This document shows, piece after piece, positions 126 through 18,036 of a stretch of 45,084 nucleotides of DNA. The notes beneath the pieces are model-generated. The model was not told the DNA's origin and made no database searches. It saw nothing but the letters and a program-made list of their open reading frames with translations. The position numbers and the translations under genes were made by a program. This DNA is from Winogradskyella sp. Its GTDB lineage: Bacteria; Bacteroidota; Bacteroidia; Flavobacteriales; Flavobacteriaceae. Positions within the stretch are counted from its first letter, which is position 1. Each line of letters starts with the position of its first letter. The stretch lies in the NCBI RefSeq assembly GCF_025210595.1, contig NZ_JAOARH010000066.1:1-45084 (forward strand), written 5' to 3'.

Positions 126-141
126 GTGATCGCGACAGGAT
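126..141. repeat. attL: 16-bp direct repeat of the tRNA-Arg 3' end
   Basis: The sequence gtgatcgcgacaggat is identical to 18021-18036, which covers the acceptor stem, discriminator and start of the T-arm of the tRNA-Arg gene. Similarity fades right after the repeat (atcgaa here, tcgaac at the other copy). A short tRNA 3' fragment on the far side of an integrase gene is the usual mark of a tyrosine-recombinase island; attL is the inferred role. Confidence 0.9.
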
Positions 142-272: not shown

Positions 273-330
273 AAACAAAAAGTGACACATAAAATGACAT
301 GTATTTTTTATATTGTGTCACTTTTTGTTT
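273..330. repeat. 17-bp perfect inverted repeat upstream of the integrase gene
   Basis: Arms 273-289 (aaacaaaaagtgacaca) and 314-330 are perfect inverse complements separated by 24 bp. The right arm ends 20 bp before the integrase start codon. The same AAAGTGACAC word occurs as an inverted pair near the other island end (17941-17964). Likely roles are arm-type recombinase or excisionase binding sites, or an operator for the integrase gene. Termination of leftward transcription is a less likely alternative. Confidence 0.75.
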
Positions 331-350: not shown

Positions 351-1652
351 ATGGCAAAGCTTTCATACAATATCCGAGAAACAAAAGATGGTGGAGGCAC
401 TATTCAGTTATATTTTAACTATGGAACAAACAAAAGACTCCGGTACTCAACAAAGTTCAAAGTTAAGAAGCTCAAAAATTGGGATAAAGATAATTCGAGG
501 GTCAGAAATGTAGCTGATGAACTAGACAGACATTTGATAAACAATAAACTAAATGATCTTAAAACAACTCTTGAAAACAAGTATACTGAATTGCTTGTAA
601 ACAAAGAAATCATCAATAATGACATTTTAACTGAGATATGTGACCTTTGTTTAGGAAGAGTAATAGCTGAAAACAAAATTGAATTTTTAGAACTTCTTCC
701 ATTTTATAAATGGTTCACTGAAAACTATTCCCAAAATCCTTTAATGTCTACAGGACGACCATTAAAAAAAGGAACAGCTAAAACATACAAAAATGCCTAT
801 ACCATTCTTAAGAGATTCAATGATGAAGTTTACAAGATAAGTTACAGAAAAATCAATATGGCTTTTTATCAAGATTTTTTAAACTGGTTGTATCTTCAAA
901 ACTATTCAAACAATTACATTGGGACGCAAATAAAAATTTTAAAAACGATGTTGAATGCTAGTTTAGAATTTGAACATCACAACAATCTTGAACATAAAAG
1001 AAGGTATTTTAAAAAGCCTGTTGAGGAAATTGACCATATTTATCTAAATAATGAAGAACTAAATAAAATTTTTAGTTTGGATTTTACGAATACGAAGCCT
1101 ATTAGAATAAGTAAATCCCTTTATTTAACACCTGATAAGTTAAATAATGCAAGGGACTTATTCTTAATTTCAGCAAATACAGGCTTAAGAGTTAGTGATT
1201 TTCATAAGTTAAATTCTAGAATAGAAAAGGACGGAAAATCCTTCTTTAAATTGATTACAAAAAAGAACAGTAAACCATTATTTATTCCTATAAACTCAAC
1301 TGTCCAAGCTATTTTAAATAAATATGACAATAATCCTCCAAGTAATATGCCAGACCAACATATAAATTATGCTTTGAAAGAAATAGGTAAACTTGCAAAA
1401 ATTGATGATCGTGTAACAATTGAAAGAACTATTGGAGGTAAACTTATTAAAAAAGACTATAAGAAACATGAACTTATTTCAAATCACACTGGTCGCAGGA
1501 GTTTTTGTACCAATGCCTATATGTCTGGCATACCAGAATCAGAAGTTATGACAATAAGTGGACATTCAACTATTGCAGTCTTTAGAAACTACATCAAGGT
1601 AGGAAAACTTGAAAGAGTACAAAAAATAAGTGACTATGAGTTTTTTAATTAA
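351..1652 (+). CDS. Tyrosine recombinase / phage integrase family protein
   Basis: Site-specific recombinase of 433 residues, expected to integrate and excise the island at the tRNA-Arg 3' end. The N-terminus is an arm-binding-type domain common in Bacteroidota integrases. A SAM-like core-binding domain follows (about 110-215) and then the catalytic domain (about 230-430). The catalytic set is visible: Arg280 in GLRVSDF, Lys304/305, His379-x-x-Arg382, His405 in SGHST and the nucleophile Tyr414. The ATG at 351 has an A/T-rich leader without Shine-Dalgarno, normal for this phylum. The gene lies 210 bp inside attL, in the usual place. It is followed 24 bp later by a hypothetical gene on the same strand. 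All catalytic residues are present, so it appears functional. Confidence 0.95.
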   Translation: MAKLSYNIRETKDGGGTIQLYFNYGTNKRLRYSTKFKVKKLKNWDKDNSRVRNVADELDRHLINNKLNDLKTTLENKYTELLVNKEIINNDILTEICDLCLGRVIAENKIEFLELLPFYKWFTENYSQNPLMSTGRPLKKGTAKTYKNAYTILKRFNDEVYKISYRKINMAFYQDFLNWLYLQNYSNNYIGTQIKILKTMLNASLEFEHHNNLEHKRRYFKKPVEEIDHIYLNNEELNKIFSLDFTNTKPIRISKSLYLTPDKLNNARDLFLISANTGLRVSDFHKLNSRIEKDGKSFFKLITKKNSKPLFIPINSTVQAILNKYDNNPPSNMPDQHINYALKEIGKLAKIDDRVTIERTIGGKLIKKDYKKHELISNHTGRRSFCTNAYMSGIPESEVMTISGHSTIAVFRNYIKVGKLERVQKISDYEFFN

Positions 1653-1676: not shown

Positions 1677-2330
1677 ATGTATATAAAATTTGATTTTAAC
1701 GATCTTCCAATTAATTATTCTGGAAAAGATTATTTAGATAACTACAAAAACTATTTTGAAAAGTTTAAAAAGAAATATCCAAAAGCCACAATTGATGACT
1801 TTCTTGAAAATGAGTTATCCCGATATTTAAAATACTTAAACAATGTTGAGGAACTATATGAAAAGAAAGAACTAATAAACCCGAAAGCTTCTAGAGATTA
1901 TTTTTTTGACCCCAAACCTGAAGACTTTACAAGGGAAATTATTGATAAGATTAGCAAAAATGAAGAAGAAAGAACCAATATTTATCTTGGCCTTAAGGAA
2001 ACCTTCACAACAATTAATGATCTGCGAAAAACCCAATCAACTGAAAGTTCTTTTTTGGATTTAAGTGAATCAGACATAGCTTCTAAAATAATTTATTTAT
2101 ATGAATTAGGTATTCTTGAATTCTTGCAAAAAGAATACAAAAACTATAGTGTTAATGCATTAGCCTCCATCATCAGCGGTATTACTGGCGAAAAGCAAAC
2201 ATCTATTCAGTCATACTTAAATCCACTGTTAAACAAAAATGATATTGATGACCCAAAATCACCATATCGAAAGAGTGGAAAAGTTGAAAGCATTAGAAGC
2301 AAAATAGTTACAAGAGGCTTTTCCAAATAA
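1677..2330 (+). CDS. Hypothetical protein, island mobility module
   Basis: A 217-residue, charged, soluble protein with no signal peptide or membrane segment. I do not recognise it with confidence. The C-terminal 90 residues (KIIYLYELGILEFLQ..., ending in a basic tail) resemble a segment I associate with hypothetical proteins of Bacteroidota mobile elements, sometimes near RteC-type excision regulators; this is a weak impression, not an assignment. It starts 24 bp after the integrase stop and precedes the excisionase-like HTH gene, so a role in integration, excision control or replication is plausible from position only. Confidence 0.75.
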   Translation: MYIKFDFNDLPINYSGKDYLDNYKNYFEKFKKKYPKATIDDFLENELSRYLKYLNNVEELYEKKELINPKASRDYFFDPKPEDFTREIIDKISKNEEERTNIYLGLKETFTTINDLRKTQSTESSFLDLSESDIASKIIYLYELGILEFLQKEYKNYSVNALASIISGITGEKQTSIQSYLNPLLNKNDIDDPKSPYRKSGKVESIRSKIVTRGFSK

Positions 2331-2404
2331 TTATAGAATTTAAACTTCTAGGGACTCCCTAATTTTTCCCTAAACCAGTTTTGTGGTCATTAACAATATT
2401 CGTT

Positions 2405-2725
2405 ATGGCTACAAACAAAATAATACAAATTGAAAGCACAAATTCAAGTGAATTAGTTTCACAGGTAGTTGATGCTATAATACCTTACATTGATAAACTT
2501 ACCAACAAAGAGCTTCCAATAGATGATCATCTAAATCTCCTTACAAGAGAAGAAACGGCTACAATTTTGAAGGTTACACTTCAAACACTTCATAATTGGT
2601 CAAAAAAAGGGATTTTAGTCCCCTTTTCCATCGGTAATCGAATTTATTATAGGAAAAGTGATGTGATTTCAGCTTTGAGACCTTGTAATGACTTAAAACA
2701 GATAGGAGGTTCTTATGAAAGCTAA
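2405..2725 (+). CDS. Excisionase-like helix-turn-helix DNA-binding protein
   Basis: A 106-residue protein. The C-terminal half (about 48-95) is a MerR/excisionase-type winged helix: LLTREETATILKVTLQTLHN, then WSKKGILVPFSIGNRIYYRKSDVI split by the wing. This is the HTH_17 pattern of Xis-like and plasmid-type regulators. The N-terminal half looks like a short helical oligomerisation region. I chose the ATG at 2405; an in-frame TTG at 2381 would add eight residues and is less likely. The end overlaps the next gene by 11 bp and contains that gene's AGGAGG site. The position after the integrase suggests an excision directionality factor or a regulator of the downstream replication-like gene. Confidence 0.85.
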   Translation: MATNKIIQIESTNSSELVSQVVDAIIPYIDKLTNKELPIDDHLNLLTREETATILKVTLQTLHNWSKKGILVPFSIGNRIYYRKSDVISALRPCNDLKQIGGSYES

Positions 2726-4130
2726 ATTAAACAATCGCTATTATTATTTCCTAATTAACAAAGAACTTTATAAAAAATTAAAATTCCAGGTTCATGCCAA
2801 TAATACAATTCACCAAAAAGGCAAATATCATATTAAGCTAGATATAGCTGCTTACTTTATTCATCTTATTTGCCACAAATCTCTACAAAGAAAGGATAAA
2901 TTAAAAAACGGCTATGTAAACCTAAAAGCTGAATACCTAAAGAAATATCATGCTAACTATACAGTTTATTTCAAATTTTTAGAAAAAATAGAACTCGTTG
3001 AATCTACTAGATCTTATAGACCGAAGCATTATTCTAAAGGATATAGAATAAAGCATGAACTAGATTGCAGTGATTTTGATTGCTATGAAGTTAAAGATTT
3101 CTCATTTAGAAAGAAACTAACTAAACTAAATTTAAAAAGAATGCAAACGGCTGATAAAACAACTTATCATTTAACTAAATGGCTAAATATTGACCATTTA
3201 TCAATAGACTATGACAATGCTATACAATATTTAAAAAACTATAAAGGTCTTCCTAAACAAAAGCAAATACGAAAATTTGCTGTAGAAATAATAAGAACTG
3301 GATTAATAGACTATTCTAGAGAAGGCAGAGATAATAGATTGCATTCAATCTTAACCCACTTGCCCAAAGACATGAGAAAGTTCATAAAAACATCCAATAA
3401 TGAAGAATTAATGGCTTTAGATATAAAGTCTTCTCAACCTTATTTATTTGCAGCCTTGCTTAAATTGATTTTCATAGATAAAGACTTAATTAAAATAGAG
3501 GGGCTATATAAATTAATTAAAGATAAGAATATTAGGCAGAGGGTGTCTTCTATTATATCTATTATGATTCATAAAAATCTTGAATACACGGATATACTTG
3601 AGATTTCAGAGTTTATAAATTTAGTTGAAACAAAAGACATTTATAATTATATTTCTTCAAATTTCACGGAAAAACTCAAATATGAAATAGAAACTCCGAT
3701 TGGAATTGGTGATTATTTTTATTGTAAGAATGTAAAAAAAAATAAATACAAACACTTTGACAACTTAAGGGACTACTCAAAGGCTATAATGCTAGAATAC
3801 TTGTATTGTTCTCCATCCAAAAAAAGAAAACGAAGACAGAAAGAAATCCGAAATATGTTTCCAGCATTAGTTAATGAAATTATTGATTTATTTAAATCTA
3901 AGTACAAAGAAGATTTTGCAATTCTTTTACAAAACATTGAAGCCGGTTTAATTCTTGATATCATTACAAAGAATATTTCTCTTATTGATAAGAATATACA
4001 ACTTTATACAATTCACGATAGTATAGTTACACTTTCAAAGCATGAAGAAATAGTCCTAAGCGAGATCAAAAATATTTATCTCAATTTTTTTGATTGGTTA
4101 CCTAAAATAAAATCTGAGGTTTGGGTTTGA
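2715..4130 (+). CDS. Putative replication protein with a family A DNA polymerase-like palm
   Basis: A 471-residue protein, probably auto-labelled hypothetical. The C-terminal half shows, in order, the hallmarks of the family A / single-subunit polymerase palm and fingers: a GRxxRLHSxxxxLPxxxR-like stretch (204-221), motif A LDIKSSQP (Asp236, Gln241), motif B R352-x3-K356-x7-Y364, and motif C IHDS (His434, Asp435). The two carboxylates and the motif B Arg/Lys/Tyr spacing match the family. There is no 3'-5' exonuclease domain; the N-terminal 150 residues are basic and may bind DNA. Translation probably uses the strong AGGAGG at 2704-2709, rare in this phylum. Inferred role: replication of the excised island. 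Function is not proven. Confidence 0.7.
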   Translation: MKAKLNNRYYYFLINKELYKKLKFQVHANNTIHQKGKYHIKLDIAAYFIHLICHKSLQRKDKLKNGYVNLKAEYLKKYHANYTVYFKFLEKIELVESTRSYRPKHYSKGYRIKHELDCSDFDCYEVKDFSFRKKLTKLNLKRMQTADKTTYHLTKWLNIDHLSIDYDNAIQYLKNYKGLPKQKQIRKFAVEIIRTGLIDYSREGRDNRLHSILTHLPKDMRKFIKTSNNEELMALDIKSSQPYLFAALLKLIFIDKDLIKIEGLYKLIKDKNIRQRVSSIISIMIHKNLEYTDILEISEFINLVETKDIYNYISSNFTEKLKYEIETPIGIGDYFYCKNVKKNKYKHFDNLRDYSKAIMLEYLYCSPSKKRKRRQKEIRNMFPALVNEIIDLFKSKYKEDFAILLQNIEAGLILDIITKNISLIDKNIQLYTIHDSIVTLSKHEEIVLSEIKNIYLNFFDWLPKIKSEVWV

Positions 4131-4281
4131 GTATTTGACAAACGCTCCCTGTCCATAATCCAGGTTTTTAGCCTTAAAATGTTAAAAGATTTTTTCTCTA
4201 TACGCGATAAATATATTACTAAACCTTGTATTTTTTAAATGTTAAAATTTAGATGATTTTTTAAGGTTTTGCACATTTTAG

Positions 4282-5289
4282 CTAATATCTTTCTCTAATT
4301 ATATCATGATATGTAGTCTTGTTTAAGTATTGAGTATTGTCAGAATTTGCATTATGATACACATGAACATTTTTCAATTCCCTATCTATTACGATTAAAT
4401 TTTCCCATCCATCGTAAAAAGCAAAAGCTCCATTTTTAATTCCTTCATACCTTAAAGCTCTTTTTACAAGTTTATCGCTATCTGCTCTTTTGTATACAAT
4501 GACATGTTCATATAAAATAATAAACGATTTTTCATTTAATGTCTCAGAAAGATCATATTCTTTTGATTCAGAATTATATTCATAATCGGCAATTTTATTT
4601 GTTTTATAGATTCCCTTAATGAGGTTGTTAGGTCTATCTAAATAGTAATTAACAACGTTGTTAGCCTGCTCCATTAGAGATTTAATTTTTTTACTATTTG
4701 TAATTAATTCTTTTATTAATTTTTCAGCTTGATCGTATGATAAATTATCAGGATACTTTTCTGTTATTTTAAACGGAATGAGTGATTCTACATAAATTTC
4801 AAAGGCTTTAAAATCTCTTATTATGTCTTTATGCTCACTTGCATACTCAATAGCTTCGTTATAATAAGTAAAGGCTTCTTCTCTTACTCTTTTAACTTCA
4901 GTTTTATAATATGTGGTTAAACTCTTTTTTTTAGCCTCATATTGTTTTTGTTTCGCTTCTAGAGCTTTGTATAATAAATTAAAGTCATAAGGCTCTACAT
5001 ATTCAGGGTATTCTCTTGGTTTATTTACATAGTTATTTGCCGTACTTTTATTTCCTTTTTTAACAGACCTTCCATCTATAAAACCACGTTGATAACCATC
5101 TTTATAGCTATTTGAACTTTCATTAATTGTTGGTAGTGGGCTTATTGGTGGGATTGGTGGGATACAACCATAATCTTGATAACAATATCCCTCCTCATAT
5201 CCTTTTTGATAACCTATATCGAATTTAGATGTTTGAGCTATCGTCGTAATTGATAATAATAATATTATAACTTGAAAAAAATTCTTCAT
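4282..5289 (-). CDS. Secreted hypothetical protein with GY-x-x-G repeats
   Basis: A 335-residue protein with a clear signal peptide (hydrophobic stretch in the first 18 residues, likely cleavage after IAQ). Two GY/GF-x-x-G repeat blocks (about 25-35 and 63-73) flank a short proline-rich stretch CIPPIPPISPLP with two nearby cysteines. A charged helical, possibly coiled-coil segment follows (about 105-215) and then a beta-rich C-terminus. I recall similar N-termini in flavobacterial proteins of unknown function but cannot name a family. It is the last minus-strand gene of the cargo, separated from the PIN gene by a 304-bp gap with a large hairpin, so it probably has its own expression. The 151-bp gap to the convergent polymerase-like gene holds nothing I can name. 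Confidence 0.8.
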   Translation of the reverse strand: MKNFFQVIILLLSITTIAQTSKFDIGYQKGYEEGYCYQDYGCIPPIPPISPLPTINESSNSYKDGYQRGFIDGRSVKKGNKSTANNYVNKPREYPEYVEPYDFNLLYKALEAKQKQYEAKKKSLTTYYKTEVKRVREEAFTYYNEAIEYASEHKDIIRDFKAFEIYVESLIPFKITEKYPDNLSYDQAEKLIKELITNSKKIKSLMEQANNVVNYYLDRPNNLIKGIYKTNKIADYEYNSESKEYDLSETLNEKSFIILYEHVIVYKRADSDKLVKRALRYEGIKNGAFAFYDGWENLIVIDRELKNVHVYHNANSDNTQYLNKTTYHDIIRERY

Positions 5290-5337
5290 TTGGGTAATTT
5301 TTGCTCACCCAGCTCCAAAGTGAATATTATCAAAAAA

Positions 5338-5489
5338 TAAGCGTGGAACTGAAGCTTATCGTTCAAGAGGTACTGGTATACCTGTCCACAAATAAACTCA
5401 GCCCACGCCATTGCATGAGCATTAAGTCTATTTACCTTGTGGACTAAAAATTACCAGTTTTCTTGAACAAGTTAAATAGCTAACGCTTA
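5338..5489. repeat. Large imperfect hairpin of four consecutive stems (about 150 bp)
   Basis: Four nested perfect stems occur in register: 5338-5344 with 5483-5489 (7 bp), 5361-5368 with 5461-5468 (8 bp), 5372-5378 with 5452-5458 (7 bp) and 5384-5391 with 5437-5444 (8 bp). They are separated by unequal internal loops and close on a loop of about 45 nt. The arrangement recalls a structured RNA, a folded recombination site such as an integron attC, or a dispersed palindromic repeat. The R-box consensus of attC sites (RYYYAAC/GTTRRRY) is not met at the outer ends, so I leave the class open. It fills most of the 304-bp gap between two minus-strand genes. Confidence 0.6.
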
Positions 5490-5593
5490 ATTATATTTTA
5501 AAAATTGTTTTTCCTTATAGATTTATTTTAACAATCATTTTTATTGACTAACAAAAATAAGTTTAATTCTCATTCATAGTTAAATATAATCTT

Positions 5594-7270
5594 TTATTCT
5601 TCATTATATTTTTCCTCACATTTTTCACAAATTTCAATATTTGATTTATCTACAAATTCCGTCCCACACGATGAGCACTCTTTGATTCTAAGATCCACTA
5701 ATTTTAATTCAAACTCACCCAGACCTTCTATATCATTACTTGTGTCTATTTTAAAAGTTAAACCGCACCCTCCTTCGCATTCAATATTTTCATTATATGA
5801 ATGTGAGTCCATTAAGGTAATACTCAAACAATCAGGGCACTCAATATGCAAACTGTTACACCAGTCACAATTGCCACTTGTAACTGAATTATATTCACCA
5901 TTAGGTTTGTCATCAGGCTTAAATTCATTTGTTAAATCAAGACTACGATCAAATCTAACAAAATTCCCCATTCCCTCTTTGTTTCCATCACAGATATGAC
6001 AAGTAATAAAGTCTGGCATATCATCATAAAAGTCAACCGTAAAATAAAAAGATTCCATTAATTCAGCTCCATCTATTTTTACACTATCGTAATTATGTAT
6101 TCCCTCTGGATATTCCCAAACTTCAAATTTTACATTTATATCATTCCCACAATCACACTTAAAATACTCCTCTGCTAAGTACTGATTTTCAGCCCCCATT
6201 TTTCTTTCCGAACCACCTACACAATCAAAATCCAAATTGATAGAGGATTCATGGTATCTGTGAATTTCCTCGCAATTACTACACTTAAAACTTAAATACT
6301 TACTTTTTGAATTCTTATTATTAATAAATTGATATAAATTCTGAATAGTTTCTTCTTGGATGGAAGAATTAATACGTTTATTAGCCTGGTATAGAAACTG
6401 AGGCAGGTTATACATCCAGAAATCAACGGAAGAGTGATCTTTAATTTCCTTTATAAGTTCTTCTCTAGGACTATAAATTCTTGATTCAGTTGCTTTTTCA
6501 TCTAAATAACACCAATCATTATCCTTTTTAATATCATTTGTTATGAATACAATTGGTTTTTTCCTCTCTTTTGAATATTCTAATATCTGTTTCCAGATTA
6601 TTAGGTCTCCAAAAATCTGAGTTCCTTGCTTTTCTTTTTTATTAAGATCTCCATATCCCGGTGGGATTTTAAATTCATAACGGTGCTTTCCTTCTTTAGT
6701 AATTTCAATAACCTCATCAAATGTAAACTCCCTGCCAACTCCAAAATAAGCCTCTAAAGATTTTAAAACATCATCGTCATCTTCAACACTTATTATTTCT
6801 TTTTCAACTTTAGAAACCTCTTTAAGTATTTCTTTTTCAAAAGTTTTATTTTGCTCAATAAAATCTTCAATTTGTTTTTTGAAACCATCTAATAAGTCTT
6901 GTCGCAAATGGGGATGTTTATCTCCTTTACTAGTTTCACGTGTGATTTCCTCAACCCTTTTTAAAACCTCTGATTTAACAGTATTCTCAATTTTCTTAAT
7001 TTTTACCTTTAATGGTTCATATTTTTCTTTTATAGGCTTTTTGATAGTTTTTTCTCTATTTTTCAAATATTCATATTGCACATGAAACGGAAGCCACAAC
7101 CTCCCGGTTAACTTTTTAAAAATTTCTTCTGATATTTTTTCCCGTTCAGGTTTTGGTGAAAAATACAAGTCCAGTAAAGCTGAGGAGTCAAATACAAAAT
7201 CGGCATTCTCCCATAAATAAGTTTCTTTCGGCTCATCTATGCGGTATAGCTTAATTGATTCTTTATCCAT
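5594..7270 (-). CDS. PIN-like domain nuclease with C-terminal multi-zinc-ribbon region
   Basis: A 558-residue protein. The N-terminal 290 residues look like the PIN_8-type fold (PIN-like domain of large proteins): VFDSSALLDLY with Asp28, a conserved glutamate region near 68, GDLIIWKQIL (Asp222) and FITNDIKKDNDW (Asp246), with a coiled-coil insertion around 80-165. The C-terminal part is rich in cysteine pairs: 330/333, 372/374, 424/427, 468/471, 478/481, 498/502, 532/535 and 548/551, implying several zinc ribbons. PIN enzymes are metal-dependent RNases or DNases. The gene starts 35 bp after the JetD-like gene on the same strand, so it may be an accessory effector of the Wadjet-like set; it could also be an independent defence gene. 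Confidence 0.75.
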   Translation of the reverse strand: MDKESIKLYRIDEPKETYLWENADFVFDSSALLDLYFSPKPEREKISEEIFKKLTGRLWLPFHVQYEYLKNREKTIKKPIKEKYEPLKVKIKKIENTVKSEVLKRVEEITRETSKGDKHPHLRQDLLDGFKKQIEDFIEQNKTFEKEILKEVSKVEKEIISVEDDDDVLKSLEAYFGVGREFTFDEVIEITKEGKHRYEFKIPPGYGDLNKKEKQGTQIFGDLIIWKQILEYSKERKKPIVFITNDIKKDNDWCYLDEKATESRIYSPREELIKEIKDHSSVDFWMYNLPQFLYQANKRINSSIQEETIQNLYQFINNKNSKSKYLSFKCSNCEEIHRYHESSINLDFDCVGGSERKMGAENQYLAEEYFKCDCGNDINVKFEVWEYPEGIHNYDSVKIDGAELMESFYFTVDFYDDMPDFITCHICDGNKEGMGNFVRFDRSLDLTNEFKPDDKPNGEYNSVTSGNCDWCNSLHIECPDCLSITLMDSHSYNENIECEGGCGLTFKIDTSNDIEGLGEFELKLVDLRIKECSSCGTEFVDKSNIEICEKCEEKYNEE

Positions 7271-7305
7271 TTTCTTTATTTTATATAATTAGTTAGAACT
7301 TTAAA

Positions 7306-8262
7306 CTATCTTGAATTAATACTAAATTCAACAATTTCAGGTATCGGTTTAATCGTTTGTTCTTCTATCCATTTATTCTCTTTGATTAATAACTCAATCA
7401 AATCTTGTGCTTCATCAGAAAATAATTCTCGTTCTAAATTTGTAAATTTTTCTTTTCTCCATTCACTATTATGTTTACCAGATTTCATTGGCTTAAGCAT
7501 TGGGTTTTTAGGTATTATTAATTTAATCTTCTTGCCTTTTCCCTTTAGTATTTTTTTAATCCTTGCATATATATCTAACCCATGATAGTCCCAATCACAA
7601 ACATAAAATACTGGATACAAGATTTTCTCTGGGGGAAGTTCTTCAAGTTTTTTTGTATTACTACCTCCCAAATACCATAGTTCTATATGATTTTCTCTAA
7701 AAAGCCATGGATCTTTTAGAAAATCGATATTTTCACATAATAAAACATACTTAGGAGTTTTACAGTCAACAACTAATCTCCATTGTTGAGATTTCGGAGA
7801 CTGCATTGGAAATTTATCTACTCCTAAAATTGTTAAAATATCATTTCGTAGTCGTTTATTATCATCTAAAAACTTTGAATCTTTTTCTTTAAAAAAATTA
7901 CTTGAAAACATATGTGGTGTTGACAGTGTATCCTTTAATTCTTCCTTATTTTTATGAATAAGTATTAGAGATTTTAAAATATCCTCAGGATATTTGCGCA
8001 AAGCAGATATCTCAATACCTACTTTTTCAAAAAAACTAGCATAATATAAATAATGATCTAGTAATTTTTGTTCAAAAAACACATCAAAACCATCTTGCTT
8101 TTCAATAATTTTTAGGTTTCCATTTTTGTAATCTATTACCCTTTCTATCTCGTACAAAACCTTTTTAACATACACATTATTCATCAGTCTTAAACGCGTA
8201 GTTTTACCCTTATACAGCCTATAAAGTCCTTCTAATTCTCTCCAGGTTAGTTCTTCTCTCAT
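7306..8262 (-). CDS. jetD: Wadjet JetD-like TOPRIM nuclease
   Basis: A 318-residue protein with a C-terminal TOPRIM region of the topoisomerase VI A / JetD type. Visible motifs are LLCENIDF (Glu177, Asn178), LWYLGGSN (198-202) and the acidic motif CDWDYHGLDIY (Asp223, Asp225, Gly228, Asp230). In Wadjet (MksG in the MksBEFG naming) this subunit cuts closed circular DNA after loop extrusion by the SMC motor. At 318 residues it is shorter than the type I JetD I know (roughly 390), with a reduced N-terminal part. It begins 2 bp after the JetC-like stop codon, indicating translational coupling. The identification rests on TOPRIM motifs plus gene order; I cannot fix the subtype. Confidence 0.85.
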   Translation of the reverse strand: MREELTWRELEGLYRLYKGKTTRLRLMNNVYVKKVLYEIERVIDYKNGNLKIIEKQDGFDVFFEQKLLDHYLYYASFFEKVGIEISALRKYPEDILKSLILIHKNKEELKDTLSTPHMFSSNFFKEKDSKFLDDNKRLRNDILTILGVDKFPMQSPKSQQWRLVVDCKTPKYVLLCENIDFLKDPWLFRENHIELWYLGGSNTKKLEELPPEKILYPVFYVCDWDYHGLDIYARIKKILKGKGKKIKLIIPKNPMLKPMKSGKHNSEWRKEKFTNLERELFSDEAQDLIELLIKENKWIEEQTIKPIPEIVEFSINSR

Positions 8263-8264
8263 AT

Positions 8265-11200
8265 TTAAGTGAATATTACTGACGGATGGTGATTGGCTCT
8301 TTCTTCATCTGCTATTTTGGTAAGCCTATAGACATATTGATTCTCTTTTTTAAGCTTGTTAGGGCTTATAGACAAGGAAATTATCTGATAATCGAAACGC
8401 TCGGCTATTTTGCTTAACATATCAAAATTAGAACCTATACCTTCTGCTTCATCGATACCCATAAAACGTAGTCCTGGAATTAATTTTGTATTCGTGTAAC
8501 TTTCATTCTTTAGAGATAATTTAGCAATACACAATAATGCAATGGAGGTATAGGTTTGCCCTGTACTCCCAGAGTTTCGTTTTCCACTTTTGGTCACGAT
8601 GCTATAATCTAGTTCATAATAAGAAAATGGGTTTAAGAGTCTTCTTAGTGAGATATTAGGCTCAGGTGTTTTGCTAAACTCTTGATAAGCATATAATAGT
8701 TTATCTTCTAAAGAGGGTAATTTTTCATTTTTTGCATTTAAACTTTCCTGATAATCAAACAAACCTATATCGACAGTTGCCAATTTTTTTAAATATTCTC
8801 CAATCCATTGTAATGAGACAGTAGTGCTTTGTTTTATCATTAATGAAGCATTGTTATCTCCTGTTATTCTAGTATAGTCTTCCTTAAAAAAACGCTTAAT
8901 AGATTTATTAATTTCTATCTGATTACTAACTTCTACTTTTAAGGCATCAAGTATATCTTTTATAGCAATTAGTTTATTTTGGTTGATTTTGGCGTTAATC
9001 TCAATTATTTTTTCCAAGTAATTCTCTATTCCGTCTAATATTGCTACTTCATTAAATGATATACTTTTAAAAATTTCTGAAGGGAATAACAACTTAGCCA
9101 ATTGCACAAAAGATTGATCACCTTTTAACTGTTCTTCTTTATCTGTTAATTTGTAAGCAATTAATATAGCCTTCAATTCTTCCCAATAATTTCTATTAGC
9201 TTTATTGTAAATTTCATAACTATTATTATAATCTTCATCACTCAATTTTTCAACCAAATCCACTTCCTTTACATAAGGATATCTCAGTTCTAAGGTTTCT
9301 AATTCTGTTTTGTATGCATCTCTTTTTCGTATAACTTCTTCTATTTCATTTACAGCTTTTAAATTATCGTTTGCTTTTCTATATTTTTCTGTAAAGTCTA
9401 TAATAAATTTATTATTGTCGACTGAAATATTTGCTATAGGTTCAATCTCTATCTTTTCCTCTTTAGCTATTTCTACAATACGAGTTTTATTCCCTTGTAT
9501 GGACTTAGTTTCAAAAACACTTAAATTTTCTTGTAGATTTTCATACTGTCTTATTTTTTTACGCACATCATTTAATTCTTTCTCCTTTCTTGCAAACATT
9601 AAAAGGACACTTTCTTTTTTAGCATATTTTTCTATTTCTATATTGAAATTGAAACCTTCAAAAGAAAGAAACACTTCCTTTCCTAATTCTACTTCTTGCT
9701 GTAAGTTATTTCGATTATGCCATACCTTTAAATCTATTTCTGGTTCTCTTAAATGCTTCAAAAGAAAATCACAAAGATGTTTTTGAATTTTTAAAGCCTT
9801 TTCTTTCTCTTTCAGTTTTAAACTTAGATTTCTATTGTTAGACTGAAATATTTCTTTTAATTCATCAATATTAGCCGTATTAAAAATTGGAGGCTTTTTT
9901 CTCTCTATAAAGATTTGAAGACCAGAAAGATCTATCCAAAAACCAGCTTCATCAGAATTACCCCCTTCATCTTTTAGTGTTTTTAGAATCTCATTAGGAT
10001 CTGGCAAATACTTACTATCTGAATTAATTTCTTCTGGCCTACTAGTTTCAACATCAAAAAAATACCTTAGAATACTCTCTTCTCGTATATTGAAGTTTCT
10101 TTTTTGATTCAATACCCAATATGCCATTGATTTTGGGTTTTCGTAATCATTAAAATTTATCAACTCTTTGTACTGCTTTATCTGAGCTGTGTTATCTAAA
10201 ATTTCCTTATTTAAAGTATCTACTATTTCCTTAAATGTTTTTTGGTGATCGAGTGTATTAAAATCGTCTTCTAACCCCTGTAATTGTAGTTGGTTCTTTA
10301 TTTCTTGATACCTGGATATTTGGTCTTTATTCTCTATATACTTTAAATAAACAGTTTTTAATTCTGTTTCATTTTTAAGTGTTAACTTTTCTAAGGCATT
10401 ATCAACGTGATTAATGAAGTCTATAGTAATTTGCAAATTATCACTTCCTATCTTAAGTGGTTTTTCTTGTATTGTGACTTCAGTAAGTTTAGAATCACAC
10501 TCCAGAAGTGTAGTTTCTTTTAGCTTGTTTAAAGCATTTATACTCTCTTTAGCTATAAAATAATTATTTAAGGCTTGTTTTATATTTCTATTTAGTTCTT
10601 TTAGTCTATTAGTTTTAAAGTTATATTCTACATTATGAAATTTTATTGCAGTATTGTCTTTAACAACTTTGAGGTCTCTTAATTTTTTTAATAATGCATT
10701 TTTTTCTTTTATATCTAGATATTCCTGATGATTTTTTCGGTGGCTTGTTATGGAGTCTTCCATCTGCTTTTCTGCTTCCCGAAATTGATAGTAAAACTTT
10801 GTTCCAGTATGCTTTCCATGTAAAAACTCTTGCAAATCCACATCATTTTTCACATTGATTCCTCTACGAGCAAATGCTTGTAATATTTTTGCATAATCTT
10901 CTAAATCACCATTATTACTAAATAGATCTATTGGTAGTATCTTGCTCTTATAAAGGACTTCGTGATAGTCTTTAAATAAGTTAAATATCTTACATCCTAA
11001 ATTATCACTTGTGTTTATGTGTCTATTAAACTCTGGTAAAGTGAGCCATTTATTATCTTTTTCAAAAGTTGCTACTGTTATTGGTTGATCAAATGGTGTG
11101 AGCATATCTTGTTCAAAATCTAAACTTTTCTGAACAATAAATGCTTGTGTTTTTTTAGACCTCCTTTCTATATAACAGCCTACTAATACAAATTTTTCTT

Positions 11201-11477
11201 TAGCCACTTCTACATTAAGATAGGCATAACCATATTCTCCTTTATCGGGTGTTTCTATAATAAGGCTAGTATAAGGTCTATCATCCTGCCCTTGTGTTGA
11301 AGATTGATATTTTGTAGAGCCTATAAGAATAAGTTGTATCAAATCGGTAATAATACTTTTACCAACACCGCTTTCTCCTGTAAAATCGGTTCTAAAAGGA
11401 TGAAATTTATAATCAAATTCTTGATGATGTATAATATTAATGGCTCCTAAACTGTATATACGTGGGTATTTTTTCAT
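8265..11477 (-). CDS. jetC: Wadjet JetC-like SMC/MukB-type ATPase
   Basis: A 1070-residue SMC-like motor. The Walker A GESGVGKS lies at 34-41, followed by about 900 residues rich in predicted coiled coil. The C-terminal ATPase half carries a signature-like NSGSTGQT (around 968-975) and the Walker B region MGIDEAEG with Asp1009-Glu1010. This layout, with few residues before Walker A and none of the long arms of chromosomal SMC, fits JetC/MksB. Such motors extrude DNA loops on plasmids and hand them to the JetD nuclease. The gene overlaps the JetB-like gene by 4 bp (ATGA) and is followed 2 bp later by the JetD-like gene. Both ATPase halves look intact. Confidence 0.9.
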   Translation of the reverse strand: MKKYPRIYSLGAINIIHHQEFDYKFHPFRTDFTGESGVGKSIITDLIQLILIGSTKYQSSTQGQDDRPYTSLIIETPDKGEYGYAYLNVEVAKEKFVLVGCYIERRSKKTQAFIVQKSLDFEQDMLTPFDQPITVATFEKDNKWLTLPEFNRHINTSDNLGCKIFNLFKDYHEVLYKSKILPIDLFSNNGDLEDYAKILQAFARRGINVKNDVDLQEFLHGKHTGTKFYYQFREAEKQMEDSITSHRKNHQEYLDIKEKNALLKKLRDLKVVKDNTAIKFHNVEYNFKTNRLKELNRNIKQALNNYFIAKESINALNKLKETTLLECDSKLTEVTIQEKPLKIGSDNLQITIDFINHVDNALEKLTLKNETELKTVYLKYIENKDQISRYQEIKNQLQLQGLEDDFNTLDHQKTFKEIVDTLNKEILDNTAQIKQYKELINFNDYENPKSMAYWVLNQKRNFNIREESILRYFFDVETSRPEEINSDSKYLPDPNEILKTLKDEGGNSDEAGFWIDLSGLQIFIERKKPPIFNTANIDELKEIFQSNNRNLSLKLKEKEKALKIQKHLCDFLLKHLREPEIDLKVWHNRNNLQQEVELGKEVFLSFEGFNFNIEIEKYAKKESVLLMFARKEKELNDVRKKIRQYENLQENLSVFETKSIQGNKTRIVEIAKEEKIEIEPIANISVDNNKFIIDFTEKYRKANDNLKAVNEIEEVIRKRDAYKTELETLELRYPYVKEVDLVEKLSDEDYNNSYEIYNKANRNYWEELKAILIAYKLTDKEEQLKGDQSFVQLAKLLFPSEIFKSISFNEVAILDGIENYLEKIIEINAKINQNKLIAIKDILDALKVEVSNQIEINKSIKRFFKEDYTRITGDNNASLMIKQSTTVSLQWIGEYLKKLATVDIGLFDYQESLNAKNEKLPSLEDKLLYAYQEFSKTPEPNISLRRLLNPFSYYELDYSIVTKSGKRNSGSTGQTYTSIALLCIAKLSLKNESYTNTKLIPGLRFMGIDEAEGIGSNFDMLSKIAERFDYQIISLSISPNKLKKENQYVYRLTKIADEERANHHPSVIFT

Positions 11478-12124
11478 TGATAACTTTCTATTATTGTGTC
11501 AATTTTAGGGATCACATCTTCATACAGGTTTATAATTCTATGAAAGGAGACTCTGAGTTCAAATTCATCCCCTTTATAATCCAACCAAGCCAATTTTCTA
11601 AAATGCTTTAAAGCTCTATCTATAGTATTATCAATAGCTTCGTCATCTTCAAAATTATCTTTATCGGCAGAAGATTGAGCAATAAGCTTTCTTAAACCAG
11701 GTTTAAACTCATCATAATCATTCCTTATAGTTTGTTTTAATTTTTGAATAGAACTTAATTCTAAGTTTCCTTCAAGAAATAAGATTTTGTACATAATCAA
11801 CCCGATAATGATAAACTCATTTTTTAGGTGGTCTCTAAATGCTTGTGATATACTCCCTCTACTCGAATCATTAAAATCTAGAAAAAAGAAAGAGTCTGCT
11901 TGCATATTTTCTTCTTTTAAACTTATTCCATAGAAACGTTCATAATATGAGTTTATAGAGTTCTTATGCTTCTTTAAAAATCGGTAATACGGTATTTGGC
12001 TTCCATAATTTTGAAAATGTTCCCCATCTTTTAAAGCATAATCTAGTTTCCCAAAGTATTGCATTGCATCTTCATCTCTTAAAAATGTTAGATATTTTAT
12101 TTCTGAACTATCATTGTTTTCCAT
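11474..12124 (-). CDS. jetB: Wadjet JetB-like KITE (MukE/MksE-type) subunit
   Basis: A 216-residue soluble, mostly helical protein without catalytic motifs. By size, position and a winged-helix-like C-terminus (about 160-210, ALKHFRKLAWLDYKGDEFE) it fits the MukE/JetB accessory subunit, which binds the kleisin and stabilises the motor complex. The start ATG lies 28 bp inside the end of the JetA-like gene, and its stop overlaps the JetC-like start by 4 bp, so the three are likely translated together. I identify it mainly by context between the kleisin-like and SMC-like genes. Confidence 0.8.
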   Translation of the reverse strand: MENNDSSEIKYLTFLRDEDAMQYFGKLDYALKDGEHFQNYGSQIPYYRFLKKHKNSINSYYERFYGISLKEENMQADSFFFLDFNDSSRGSISQAFRDHLKNEFIIIGLIMYKILFLEGNLELSSIQKLKQTIRNDYDEFKPGLRKLIAQSSADKDNFEDDEAIDNTIDRALKHFRKLAWLDYKGDEFELRVSFHRIINLYEDVIPKIDTIIESYQ

Positions 12125-13416
12125 AATGCTGTGTTTGCTTTTTCTACCAAATTAGTGTTATCAATGTTTACACTATATTTATTGCTATTATGTGCTTCTT
12201 CTATTACTCTAAAAGTCACTTTTGTAGCTATCGTAAAATTATTGGTCTCGTCTAATACTGAAAAAAATCCTTTAGAAATGTCTAATTCCTTACGTTGTTG
12301 TAGTTGCGCAAAAAACAATTGTACCCAATCTTCGATAACCTGTGTTTCTCGGAATGCCGCTTCAAGAATATCTTTATTTTGTGTCTCTATTTTTGGGTTT
12401 CTTTCATATTTCTTTCTTGGCTTTGCTTGCGTTGGAAATAAACTACGATCCCTGTCAATTACAATGTATTTACAACGTTTGTAATTTGTAGTTTTAGCTT
12501 CTATTTCTTTTGGTAATATTATCTTTTTATCATTTACCTCTAATGTTGAATATTTTAGTAAAAAACGTATGAATCTGTCTATTTTCGCACTATATTCTGG
12601 TTGACTTAGTATAAAGAAAAGTTGCTTTATCTTTGGCTGTATTTTATCCAATCTCCTATTTGTATTTCTCAACCTACTTTGTACATTATCAAAAAACCGA
12701 GTAGTATTTTTTATGTAATCTAATATTGTTTTTTGATCTGTCTCTATTTCTATTAATAGAGTGCTAATGGAATAGGTTTCTGAAAATGCAGCACGTAATT
12801 CTTCATTTTTTTTCTGTATATCTTCGAGATCATCACTTACTGTTTGTAATAATTGTATTGGTAATTGTTTTTCGGCAAGTGTATCATTTCTAAGTTTCTG
12901 AACTGCTTCATCAATTTGTCTATCTAGAAAATCTATTTGCTGTTTAAGGTTTGGGTGAAAATTTTTAAAATCTATTGTAAACCATTCTTCTATTTTAATA
13001 TCATCTCCAAGACATTCCTTCAATTTATGCTTTAGCTGAGAGCATATTATCTTTATTTCTGTAGGCTTTAAGGAACCTTTCAAAGTCTCTTCTGCTATTC
13101 TACAAAATTTCACACCGTATTCTTGAAAAGAATAAAGCTGCGTTTCATCATCATACTTAATAAAAAATTTTTGAAGTTTATTGATACGTTCTTTTAAATG
13201 AAACACCCTTTTTTCTCCTTCATTTAGAGTAGATTCAAATATATTACGAATCTCATTGGCACTAAAAGCATCATTCTCATAGTTTCCGGCTTTTACACTC
13301 TCGTATAAATGAGCGATTACAATACCTTCCTTTTCATCCGGGTACAACTGCTTGTATATCTCTGGCTTTGATATTTCATCAATAAAATTAAAAATTTGTG
13401 ATTCTTCTTCCTTCAA
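12097..13416 (-). CDS. jetA: Wadjet JetA-like kleisin (MukF/MksF-type) subunit
   Basis: A 439-residue protein with a helical N-terminal region, a central coiled coil (about 165-270, including EDIQKKNEELRAAFSE) and a basic linker near 330-345 (RKKYERNPK). A winged-helix-like C-terminal domain follows. This is the plan of MukF/JetA kleisins, which bridge the SMC heads and bind the KITE dimer. It lies 35 bp after the UvrD-like helicase gene and overlaps the JetB-like gene by 28 bp. There are no enzymatic motifs, as expected. Assignment rests on architecture and gene order (kleisin, KITE, SMC, TOPRIM). Confidence 0.8.
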   Translation of the reverse strand: MKEEESQIFNFIDEISKPEIYKQLYPDEKEGIVIAHLYESVKAGNYENDAFSANEIRNIFESTLNEGEKRVFHLKERINKLQKFFIKYDDETQLYSFQEYGVKFCRIAEETLKGSLKPTEIKIICSQLKHKLKECLGDDIKIEEWFTIDFKNFHPNLKQQIDFLDRQIDEAVQKLRNDTLAEKQLPIQLLQTVSDDLEDIQKKNEELRAAFSETYSISTLLIEIETDQKTILDYIKNTTRFFDNVQSRLRNTNRRLDKIQPKIKQLFFILSQPEYSAKIDRFIRFLLKYSTLEVNDKKIILPKEIEAKTTNYKRCKYIVIDRDRSLFPTQAKPRKKYERNPKIETQNKDILEAAFRETQVIEDWVQLFFAQLQQRKELDISKGFFSVLDETNNFTIATKVTFRVIEEAHNSNKYSVNIDNTNLVEKANTALWKTMIVQK

Positions 13417-13451
13417 AACCTACTTGATTATTTGTATTTGACTTTTATTCA

Positions 13452-15455
13452 TCATAAAGTATCTATATCAATAATATTTGCTTTACCAAACCAATTGGAG
13501 GCTTTATTAATTGCTTCTTTAGAATACGCTTCATTGTAGAAAACAATTAGATTTTCCATAGCTCTTGTACAGCTTACATAAAATAACTTTTGAGTTCTTT
13601 TGACTATTTCCACCTTACCAATAGTATCTTCAAATAAATACTTGTAGCTTAATTTTTTATCTCCACTTGGATCCAAACTTATTAGCACATTCGTAAATTC
13701 TGCCCCTTTTACACCATGTTGGGTTGAATAAATTGTATAACCTTCCACATAGTTATATAGATTTTCAATTTCACTGAATTTTACTTTTTTAACTCTCTCA
13801 AACAAATATTCATTTTTTTGTATGAATTCTTCAAGTTTGTCACTCATAAAGCAAATTCCGAGTTCATCGGCTTTATCTATAACATCTTCTATATTTGAAT
13901 CTTTAATTGAATTTAATTCAATTAGTTTCCCCTTCAGCTCAATCTTATTCCTAGCGAAAAGAATCTTGAAGTCCACTAAATCCTTTAGCTCATAAAACCT
14001 TTCTTGGTTAAATAAAAAAAGTATCTCCTGTATCTTAAGTAGATGTCTGATTAAAATATCCCTTTCATCACTTCTCCTATTTGATTCTTCATTACTACTT
14101 TTCTTTTTTCCAATTAGCTTACTCCTATCTAAATAAATTCTTTTTATATTCTCAAATGATGATTTTAAAGCTTTTTCGAAAATATTATTATTCTCATTGA
14201 TAAAATTAAATAGGCTCTCTGTAGGCAATACTTCTTTTATTTTTGGGTACTCCTTATTCAATAAATTAGCAGCTTTTAAAAATGTTAAATTCTCTTCATC
14301 TTTAATTTTTAATAGCTTACCTATTGCTTTTTCATATGATAACTGATTATCTATACCTTTTATTAATGACTCTATAACCTGACCGAAAGTATATTCATCA
14401 TAGTTTTCTATTATTTCATATTTCTTGATATAGTCTTTAATTCTTTTTAAATAACTACTACTACCTACAATTTTATCTTTGGAGTAAATATCCATTAAGG
14501 ATTGAAAATCAGCTTGCTTTGCTATCAAACTATGAGACAAATACAATTCCTTTGTTTCCTCATAATTTTTAAAATCCCAATTATCAAAAAAGGATAAACT
14601 TTTAACGTCTTCAATTTTCTTAGAATTACTGCCTGAATAAAGAAATAATATCTTTCCTTCCTTTATATTACCGTTTTCTTCATTATTAGGAGCATTACTA
14701 TTCTTTTCAGCCTTTTGCTCAAGCCCATCTAACCTAATTTTATTTGCTAATTGAATCACACTCTGTGGGTTTCTCCTATTAACAATTTTCTGAACTTCAA
14801 CTGGTAAAGATATTTTTACTCCCGTTTCTTCTTTAATTCCTAGGTAATCAGATAAATCCCCAATACCTTTCTCAAAAATTGATTGCATACTATCTCCAAA
14901 AAGGCCAACAATAGTGTTTTTTGTTAACTTATCTGATGACTTAAGAAGTATATCCAATACTTCTTCAAACGTATCTTGATATTCATCAACAAGTATAAGG
15001 TCATATCTATCATCCAGGATCTTGTTTAACAAAGGGTATTTTTCGAATAAATGTTTCGAAAGGCTAATAACTTCATCATGCGATATTACTCCCTTTTTAA
15101 AGCTTTTATATTCTCTGTATTCAATCTTTGTAATATCATCAGACCTAACAACTTTTTCTTTATACAAATCGAAAAATGCTTCAACTAAATTTATTTGATA
15201 ATTGCCAATGTTAAACCATAAAAAATCGTGTATTGTTGAGACATATAGATTCTCGTGATTTGCCCGTTCTTTAATTTCATCTGCTGCAATATTTGTAAAG
15301 GTTATACATGCGATATTTGCGTGAGGCTTTTCTTTGTAAACTTGATTTAATAAGGCAATCAATGTATGAGTCTTACCACTCCCCGCGCCTCCACTTAATA
15401 GAAAATTACTTTTACCTTTTACAAGTTTTGTTATTGAGTCTATTTCTGAAGCCAT
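13452..15455 (-). CDS. gajB: Gabija GajB-like UvrD/PcrA-type helicase
   Basis: A 667-residue SF1A helicase. Motif I GGAGSGKT is at 22-29, motif Ia ITFTNIAADE at 51-60, motif II DEYQDT at 157-162, motif III GDSMQS at 187-192, motif V QHGVKGAEF at 579-587 and motif VI SCTRA with Arg631. A large, poorly recognisable insertion (about 230-560) separates the two cores and makes it longer than the GajB prototype I know (about 500 residues). In Gabija, GajB partners the OLD-type nuclease GajA and hydrolyses nucleotides or senses DNA ends. The start overlaps the GajA-like gene by 16 bp. All helicase motifs appear intact. A class 2 OLD-UvrD pair not yet shown to act as Gabija is the alternative. Confidence 0.88.
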   Translation of the reverse strand: MASEIDSITKLVKGKSNFLLSGGAGSGKTHTLIALLNQVYKEKPHANIACITFTNIAADEIKERANHENLYVSTIHDFLWFNIGNYQINLVEAFFDLYKEKVVRSDDITKIEYREYKSFKKGVISHDEVISLSKHLFEKYPLLNKILDDRYDLILVDEYQDTFEEVLDILLKSSDKLTKNTIVGLFGDSMQSIFEKGIGDLSDYLGIKEETGVKISLPVEVQKIVNRRNPQSVIQLANKIRLDGLEQKAEKNSNAPNNEENGNIKEGKILFLYSGSNSKKIEDVKSLSFFDNWDFKNYEETKELYLSHSLIAKQADFQSLMDIYSKDKIVGSSSYLKRIKDYIKKYEIIENYDEYTFGQVIESLIKGIDNQLSYEKAIGKLLKIKDEENLTFLKAANLLNKEYPKIKEVLPTESLFNFINENNNIFEKALKSSFENIKRIYLDRSKLIGKKKSSNEESNRRSDERDILIRHLLKIQEILFLFNQERFYELKDLVDFKILFARNKIELKGKLIELNSIKDSNIEDVIDKADELGICFMSDKLEEFIQKNEYLFERVKKVKFSEIENLYNYVEGYTIYSTQHGVKGAEFTNVLISLDPSGDKKLSYKYLFEDTIGKVEIVKRTQKLFYVSCTRAMENLIVFYNEAYSKEAINKASNWFGKANIIDIDTL

Positions 15456-17518
15456 AACAAACCTTCTTTAATATATGACGGAATTCCCCAATTACTATAA
15501 CTTTCATTACTATGATATACAATATCTAATGCAAAATGAGTCTTCTTTTTTATACAATCCTCTGCTAAAGAATAAGCATCCTTTTTTTCTTCTCCCTCTA
15601 AGTCAAAATTTGATTCTTTTTTAAGTCCTTGAAACGTAGTCTTATTTTTTGTAATAAATTCTCTATTAAGATGAATAAAAGCATCTTCAAAACTTCTAGC
15701 ATGATACCCCTTCTCCATATGCTGATATGACACGCATAAACTGCCTTTTTTTATAATATAATTGTTTACAGAATTCTTAAGGTCATCAAATTTATATGAG
15801 CTTAAAAAGTGAGTTAATGAATTGTTCGAAGTTCCCGAAGCTTCTTTATCTCCAACTCTGCATTTCTCTCTTTCTAATATAGGATTATCTTGCTTATCAG
15901 TTTTTCCATTATCCACAAGTTTAAAAGTATCAAAATCAGTTACTAGAAGTGATTTAATTCCTATAAAATCTATAAACTTTTCGAAAATGTGTGAATAAGC
16001 CCCAACTTCAACTATAGATATATTTTGGGATAATAACGCAGGAGATAATTTTTCATTTAAATCTAACTTCCTCATCATAACTGGCAGTAAAATACGTTCC
16101 GTATCTCCTTCAATTAAGATTGCTTTATCAGCAAAAAATAGCTCTGCTCTATTTATTGTTAAATATTGTTTTAAAAAAGCATATTGATCAGTTTCTACAC
16201 TATATGCTTTTTTAAGGTCTTTTAAATTCTTAGAAATTATATTATTCTCCTTCTCTTCTTTTAAAAAATACTTTATATCATCAAAATTACTCTCAGCCGT
16301 TATATGAGATGAATGTGTGGTAATAATACTTTGAAGTATAAAAGTTTTTTTACCATCTACTTTTTCACCCTTAGAATCGAGTCCATTTTTCTCATTCTCA
16401 AGTATTCTAGTTATATTTTTTATGAATACATGCTGCATTTGAGGATGGGTATGCGCTTCAGGCTCTTCAATAAAGAGTAAATTTATATCTGCCGGAATCT
16501 GATTTTCAAGAATCTCCTTTTCCTTTCTAAACTCTCTACATTTTAATTCTATATCAAAGATCATGGCAAATAAATTCAAATAACCAAGACCATGGTAGTC
16601 TTCAGGTAAATGATGATCAATATGCTTATAAACTACTGAAGTATTCTCTTTTAATATATTTTTACTCTGTAGTGAAGATATTACTCCAATTATTGACTCA
16701 CCTTCTTCCTTACCTCCAAATATTTCTACCTTTTTTAATACTTCTTCAAATACTTCAGGATAAATTTTATTTAATTCGTCATCAGTATTTTCTAATTCTT
16801 TCTTTAATTTCTTAATTGTCTTTTCCTCTTTTGGTGTATTCTCAATACTCTCATAATAATCTGCTGACAATTTTGATAATGTATTATCTGATCTATTAGT
16901 GTCTGAATTGTTTACTTCTCTTTTGGCCTTTATATTTTGGAAGTTTATAATTCTAGTTAAAGTTTTCTTATCCTTTATGAGTTGAGATATACCATAAGTA
17001 CCATCAGCTTTATATTCTATAGTCTTTACTTGATTAATAAAAAAGCGTCCATTGTGATCTATTTTTAGAAAATCAATAATATTCTTATTCTTATTATCAG
17101 CTTTAAATTTTCTAAACTCTTCTTGAAGCAACTCATATAAGTTCGAATTCAACGAATGTTCAAAACCTATAACAACTACATTTTCTTCTTCTAAATTCAG
17201 AATCAAAGGAGAAATATTCTTTAGATTATCATTATTGTCATAATGTATTTCTAGTAAAAGCTTAATAGTAAAATCCAAATCCTCAGGAATCGCGATAGAG
17301 TTCTTATTCTCAAGCTTACTTAGTTCTAATTGTTTATCTATTGTGAAGTCATTAATGCTAAATTGACTTTTTTCATTGATGAATTTTTCCATCACCGATA
17401 ATAATGAAGTCTTTCCAGTATTATTTTTTCCAATTATTAGTGACAAATTTTCCTCAAGATCTATTGAGAAGTCATTGAGCAATCTAAAGTTCTCAACTTT
17501 AATTTTCTTAATTATCAT
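15440..17518 (-). CDS. gajA: Gabija GajA-like OLD-family ATPase/TOPRIM endonuclease
   Basis: A 692-residue protein with an ABC-type ATPase half followed by a TOPRIM nuclease. Walker A GKNNTGKTS is at 30-38, signature-like HGLGYLNLF at 309-317, Walker B LLFIEEPEAHTHP at 347-359 and the switch histidine region TTHSSH at 400-405. TOPRIM motifs follow: ILIEGDTER (Glu470) and LVTDFDT (Asp528, Asp530). Class 2 OLD proteins with an adjoining UvrD-like gene are the Gabija arrangement. GajA nicks DNA and is held off by nucleotides until phage infection lowers them. It is longer than the about 580-residue prototype, with a lysine/glutamate-rich insertion near 200-290. It is first in the possible seven-gene transcript; no consensus promoter is obvious upstream. 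Confidence 0.9.
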   Translation of the reverse strand: MIIKKIKVENFRLLNDFSIDLEENLSLIIGKNNTGKTSLLSVMEKFINEKSQFSINDFTIDKQLELSKLENKNSIAIPEDLDFTIKLLLEIHYDNNDNLKNISPLILNLEEENVVVIGFEHSLNSNLYELLQEEFRKFKADNKNKNIIDFLKIDHNGRFFINQVKTIEYKADGTYGISQLIKDKKTLTRIINFQNIKAKREVNNSDTNRSDNTLSKLSADYYESIENTPKEEKTIKKLKKELENTDDELNKIYPEVFEEVLKKVEIFGGKEEGESIIGVISSLQSKNILKENTSVVYKHIDHHLPEDYHGLGYLNLFAMIFDIELKCREFRKEKEILENQIPADINLLFIEEPEAHTHPQMQHVFIKNITRILENEKNGLDSKGEKVDGKKTFILQSIITTHSSHITAESNFDDIKYFLKEEKENNIISKNLKDLKKAYSVETDQYAFLKQYLTINRAELFFADKAILIEGDTERILLPVMMRKLDLNEKLSPALLSQNISIVEVGAYSHIFEKFIDFIGIKSLLVTDFDTFKLVDNGKTDKQDNPILEREKCRVGDKEASGTSNNSLTHFLSSYKFDDLKNSVNNYIIKKGSLCVSYQHMEKGYHARSFEDAFIHLNREFITKNKTTFQGLKKESNFDLEGEEKKDAYSLAEDCIKKKTHFALDIVYHSNESYSNWGIPSYIKEGLLWLQK

Positions 17519-18020: not shown

Positions 18021-18036
18021 GTGATCGCGACAGGAT
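18021..18036. repeat. attR: 16-bp direct repeat inside the tRNA-Arg gene
   Basis: The same 16 bp as at 126-141, here forming the 3' part of an intact tRNA-Arg gene plus one base beyond it. The tRNA therefore stays functional after integration. The crossover lies somewhere within these 16 bp. Confidence 0.9.

Follow-up and report, generated by a model that had tools for sequence, protein, structure and literature searches.

The window analyzed here (45,084 nucleotides; positions 1 to 45,084 of contig NZ_JAOARH010000066.1 of the marine bacterium Winogradskyella sp.) contains a 17.9-kb tRNA-integrated island (126 to 18036) that encodes a stand-alone polymerase. On this element with defined ends, the genes follow the order integrase (int), one further gene, excisionase (xis), and polymerase (Table 1). 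The polymerase open reading frame (ORF) begins with ATG and runs for 471 amino acids (aa) without an internal stop; in the same register, the opposite strand of 2715-4130 has stops throughout. Its start codon falls within the final 11 bases of the excisionase-like gene (an overlap of 11 bases), confirming the placement behind int and xis that a first-pass annotation, made from the sequence alone, had reported.

Table 1. Coordinates of the island features in the window
Feature	Position	Strand	Remarks
attL, copy of tRNA-Arg 3' end, 16-bp core	126..141	.	exact repeat of 18021-18036
Inverted pair AAAAAGTGACAC, possible integrase arm sites	277..326	.	two further exact copies by the right end: 17939-17950, 17951-17962
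Tyrosine integrase (int)	351..1652	+	Pfam Phage_integrase 7.8e-9, Phage_int_SAM_5 6.4e-10
217-aa gene, function unknown	1677..2330	+	no Pfam match over cut-off
Excisionase-like HTH_17 protein (xis)	2381..2725	+	Pfam HTH_17 3.3e-10; phrog_66 "excisionase and transcriptional regulator" 1e-6
TV-Pol-like polymerase, 471 aa	2715..4130	+	N-terminal part ~1-125; family A polymerase core ~141-471
Cargo on other strand: 335-aa protein, PIN_8 protein, Wadjet/MksBEF-like genes, GajB, GajA	4282..17518	-	
PIN_8 domain protein	5594-7270	-	2.3e-46; adjoins Wadjet-like genes
Divergent Wadjet/MksBEF-type-looking system, four genes	7306-13416	-	
Gabija-like pair	13452-17518	-	GajB PADLOC 1.1e-180; GajA-like = OLD/AAA_15
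tRNA-Arg(tct); 3' end = attR (18021-18036)	18021..18095	-	

The first-pass annotation had read family A polymerase motifs in this protein, and we found them at the residues it named: D236 in ALDIKSSQPY, R352-x3-K356-x7-Y364, and H434-D435 in TIHDSIV. We aligned the window protein with 102 of 106 related loci (26 from viral contigs and 80 from genome contigs; 4 with a cut ORF or fewer than 380 aa were left out), and the resulting 103 rows include some near copies. The residues central to the motif reading are kept across this alignment: D236, like Q241, in 103/103 rows, and K356 and D435, like E409 and H434, in 102/103 rows each, the sole gap being a split ORF (L043). R208 stands in 102 rows and is K in the remaining one; position 352 holds R in 90 rows and K in 11, and at position 364, F (62 rows) is commoner than Y (39). 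For the 14 most similar pairs, at 70 to 97% identity, dN/dS was 0.08 to 0.14. The polymerase palm anticipated by the annotation also appeared: VIA-align of the predicted structure showed the palm and fingers of a family A polymerase fold, and all 50 rows shown were DNA polymerases, with nothing beyond the polymerase core and no nuclease domain. Neither of the outcomes that the annotation gave as refuting, a predicted fold lacking the palm and nonconserved motif residues, was obtained. We conclude that this is a conserved and selected family A type core, free of any recognized exonuclease, behind a separate N-terminal domain; that the protein has a polymerase core is almost certain.

The window polymerase went unmatched, at the limits used, in Pfam, PHROGs, and PADLOC and among PDB sequences, and searches of 50 family members against Pfam, PHROGs, and NCBIfam gave no naming match (phrog_4756, function unknown, matched 9 of the 50). 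PF00476 (DNA_pol_A) was found in one place only in its own genome, on another contig (C77). A profile alignment with PolA at first recovered motif C only. Once T7 DNA polymerase was included and the threshold lowered, the motifs came into collinear alignment (E 3e-4), a result that we do not rely upon because its probability was only 40%.

The protein also has the basic N terminus of its own that had been noted, with 31 K+R versus 13 D+E in residues 1 to 140. A winged helix is predicted at ~42 to 112, and this part of the protein superposes on PDB 4pql, 4pt7, and 5kbj with a root mean square deviation of 4.5 to 4.9; we take these entries to be the N-terminal domains of RepA-type plasmid initiators. 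Scores similar to those of the plasmid-initiator domains were reached by a Fur protein (8.0) and by an ORC subunit (7.5), so the likeness holds at the level of the winged-helix fold only. An N-terminal profile found nothing of note among PDB sequences, including no sequence similarity to 4pql, 4pt7, or 5kbj, and it gave no alignment with the DnaD-like proteins of the sister islands described next.

At E <= 1e-40, the window integrase has matches in 20 of 119 genomes (its own counted), and we compared the genes after xis in 12 fetched of the 19 other genomes. The order int, one gene, xis recurs in 10 of these 12 sister islands (L223 and L233 have no xis match), and the polymerase was not seen in any of the 12 stretches. 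Instead, five islands (L224 to L228) carry DnaD-like and DnaC-like proteins after xis, the DnaD-like assignment coming from PHROGs for L224 (6.5e-29) and L226 (1.7e-20) and from BLAST at 34 to 62% for the other three. Three more (L229, L230, and L232) carry a rolling-circle Rep behind a small ORF, recognized by REP_ORF2-G2P in L229 (4.9e-13) and by BLAST in L230 and L232, and L231 carries DUF3987 (9.3e-37) and DUF6371. In L222, which has the nearest integrase (56%), the slot protein matches REP_ORF2-G2P below the cut-off; this 193-aa protein (L222:11740-12321, minus strand) has an HVH stretch as in HUH nucleases. The polymerase thus occupies the slot in which sister islands hold other replication genes. 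The same argument, one replication module swapped for unrelated ones, was applied to TV-Pol and prim-pol (PMC2579912), and here it is made with islands that share an integrase and xis. At the sister loci, too, int and xis are often separated by a gene of ~190 to 500 aa. We rejected an RteC-type regulator as the identity of the 217-aa gene, as neither it nor one counterpart (L098) has such a Pfam match.

The name TV-Pol was given in 2008 to family A-like polymerases that stand alone on mobile elements, with Bacteroidetes members and integrase neighborhoods among them, and primase-polymerase activity was predicted for them (PMC2579912). The window protein resembles them as a nuclease-free, stand-alone family A-like core of the 400- to 600-aa class in an integrase-bearing mobile element, and it shows five of the TV-Pol features tested. 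The absolutely conserved hairpin arginine corresponds to R208 (102/103), which precedes strand 209-211 and has strand 200-202 ahead of it, and the two metal-binding palm aspartates correspond to D236 and D435. The RxxxK of the fingers is present (position 352 is one of R and K in 101/103 rows, and K356 follows), and no Pol I type nuclease is fused or linked, either by Pfam match or in the VIA-align rows. The association with a D5-like helicase or recombinase is found through the integrase, on the window island and within 6 genes of the polymerase at 57 of 80 genome-contig loci. The predicted helices 129-154 and 180-195 are candidates for the two-helix thumb that precedes the palm in TV-Pols. 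The window also has D308-I-Y310, a possible counterpart of the TV-Pol fingers aspartate; column 308 varies, and Y310 is kept in 102/103 rows. A default profile search of the 195 ORFs of phage Ma-LMM01 gave no match; with filters off, the best match of profile A2 was a weak one to an ORF beside transposases (E 0.0045), presumably the TV-Pol named in PMC2579912.

The window gene differs from described TV-Pols in that no D5 helicase was recognized with it and in that its N terminus is predicted to be a winged helix, whereas an all-helical extra domain was predicted in the recombinase-linked subset (PMC2579912). It shares the palm, fingers, and collinear motifs of the family A fold with DNA polymerase I but has no Pfam DNA_pol_A match and no exonuclease domains, and its motif A reads D-x4-Q. 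Overall, the window protein very probably belongs to TV-Pol. We correct the "uncharacterised" reading of the first-pass annotation to a protein of an already described type, while the "replicase or initiator" that it guessed gains support because of slot replacement and, weakly, the predicted winged-helix N terminus, in addition to gene context.

Among the closest known systems is CcPol-MP of SCCmec, demonstrated as a primase in 2020; CcPol was then, to those authors' knowledge, the only biochemically characterized TV-Pol (PMC7581432). PMC10061031 reports that CcPol without MP performs primer extension only, that CcPol retains part of a 3'-5' exonuclease domain, and that 16 of 17 pairs in Bacillota have an OB-fold partner. 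Like CcPol-MP, the window gene pairs a family A catalytic core with a site-specifically integrated island carrying defense-type cargo, as an island replication module. Unlike in CcPol-MP, no OB-fold partner gene lies between polymerase and helicase, as opposite-strand cargo follows the polymerase directly; no D5 or DUF927 helicase was found among those island ORFs that were run against Pfam; and no exonuclease remnant was seen in the protein. In one open-license literature library, we found no account of helicase-less Bacteroidota TV-Pol islands, which is no proof of their absence.

The polymerase family was present in 13 of 197 related genomes (its own counted), with the other members at 26 to 35% identity. 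Scanning genome and viral contigs with a single protein returned no relative. Alignment-based searches did: they recovered 26 viral-contig loci and, in a phylum-wide survey, matches in 15 of 395 genomes (its own counted); a narrower alignment yielded 147 confirmed stretches from genome contigs. The 80 of these used for locus analyses have Bacteroidota names, bar one titled only "bacterium," and a family member also lies on a Hymenobacter plasmid. An xis cluster lies within 6 genes of the polymerase at 46 of the 80 loci, directly before it in 36; an AAA_24 gene lies within this range at 10, 8 of which also have DUF3871; and 14 have none of int, xis, and AAA_24. A tRNA 3'-end repeat of at least 15 bp flanks the polymerase at 13 of 97 loci, window included, in a count made without a shuffled control (a tRNA lies within the analyzed stretch at 56 of the 97). 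A quick 119-row tree required 8 changes of the int-plus-xis label, at least 4 of them forced by well-supported branches, versus 37.7 in shuffles; the association is clustered, yet not a single block.

Based on these observations, we consider it likely that the polymerase is the replication protein of the island, starting or performing its copying. Int and Xis would excise the island as a circle, and the N-terminal winged helix would bind island DNA. The palm would then start and extend DNA on the excised circle in primase-polymerase fashion, as proposed for TV-Pols, with D236 and D435 as metal ligands and K356 on an O-like helix of the fingers. Because the Pfam-searched island ORFs include no recognized replicative helicase, their only helicase-type gene being the GajB-like cargo, we invoke the host helicase and replisome, which would supply the remaining functions. 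An excised or newly arrived element could thereby multiply ahead of integration. No iteron family was recognized near the polymerase gene. The likelihoods that we attach to the polymerase core, to TV-Pol membership, to this replication role, and to the one-gene module proposed below are judged and not computed.

A narrower role is strand completion, in which the polymerase would synthesize the second strand of island DNA that enters single-stranded by conjugation or uptake, or would fill gaps, and would not start replication on the circle. The lack of a recognized helicase with the polymerase fits such a role, as does the finding that 40 of 97 loci (some on stretches cut short by contig ends) lack any ORF with a Walker A motif and a length of 180 aa or more within 8 genes of the polymerase; CcPol without MP likewise only extends primers (PMC10061031). 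However, the same slot in sister islands holds initiators or helicase loaders, not primases alone, and no relaxase was recognized among the island ORFs in general library scans, none of them aimed at relaxases, which disfavors entry by the island's own conjugation. We regard strand completion alone as unlikely.

Somewhat less probable still is that the polymerase belongs to the defense cargo as a polymerase-based antiphage gene, for which reverse-transcriptase defense systems offer a parallel. The island does carry Gabija-like and Wadjet-like genes, and cargo beside other polymerase loci is often restriction-modification (73 of 106 candidate cargo ORFs looked at). In the Wadjet-like set, the first gene encodes 439 aa, one gene matches MksE (3.9e-14), the 1,070-aa MukB-like ATPase matches below the cut-off, and a JetD-like gene has weak PADLOC matches (best, 6.4e-5); PADLOC named none of the first three. 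However, the polymerase has no PADLOC match, overlaps xis, and is transcribed along with int and xis, while the cargo lies on the opposite strand. The same order also recurs with different cargo, as in L125, L126, and L129 from three genera, whose polymerases are 95 to 96% identical and whose downstream content is largely different. A single-subunit RNA polymerase transcribing the island is very improbable: the E409-H434 distance of 25 equals that of Q786-H811 in T7 RNA polymerase, TIHDSIVT resembles its LIHDSFGT, and mitochondrial RNA polymerases reach Foldseek ranks 18, 20, and 26, but every VIA-align row shown was a DNA polymerase and a profile alignment to T7 RNA polymerase (a single sequence and a weak test) gave nothing collinear.

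We place the island at 17.9 kb because of its 16-bp end repeat and because of junctions in relatives that resemble an unoccupied site. In 8/8 relatives fetched for this comparison (of 40 searched), the sequence of window ~83/93-147, with its terminator-like part at 94-125, abuts tRNA-Arg, as in an unoccupied site, and no int, xis, or polymerase was found within 7 kb on that side (within 0.2 kb in L244 and 1.6 kb in L249). AAAAAGTGRCAC occurs exactly at 277(+), 315(-), 17939(+), and 17951(+), and at one mismatch or fewer it has 7 matches in the window versus 0.79 expected. One exact match, at 43266, is outside the island, where the lone copy of the arm-site-like AAAAAGTGACAC spans 43266-43277.

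Family members also occur in large viral genomes. The window protein had no tblastn match in phages, and a viral-contig member used as the query retrieved 6 records of uncultured huge phages (LR756511, LR756501, LR756503, LR745206, LR756502, and LR756504; 595 to 735 kb). Members on these records and on large viral contigs, including L038, L039, and L049 (187 to 345 kb), are shorter, at ~390 to 410 aa. The polymerase ORF of L082 (9523-11580, plus strand; same as L164) runs on into a GIY-YIG/NUMOD1 homing-endonuclease-like part (residues 477 to 669), and those of L010/L025 (G024) and L043 are in two pieces, probably decaying or misassembled. A second neighborhood (L112, L143, L158, L167, L171, L173, L174, and others) combines the polymerase with DUF3871 and an AAA_24 ATPase that has a weak Sak4-like PHROG match, and some of its loci encode a 113- to 130-aa protein (cluster C19) that may be a partner of the single-stranded DNA-binding protein (SSB) type.

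We tentatively suggest that the window gene may represent a one-gene module in which a winged helix that binds the origin is fused to a family A polymerase that does its own priming, with no need of a dedicated helicase or SSB partner. In the otherwise shared int-X-xis chassis of Bacteroidota defense islands, this module would be exchanged for rolling-circle Rep, DnaD/DnaC loaders, or DUF3987 modules. CcPol requires a partner protein for priming, and the widespread Bacteroidota branch described here has no recognized partner or helicase. This branch would test whether a minimal family A core alone can start DNA, a question that PMC2579912 raised about how Pol I and T7 RNA polymerase arose. With its interchangeable content, the slot behind xis is also a simple route to more replication genes of defense islands.
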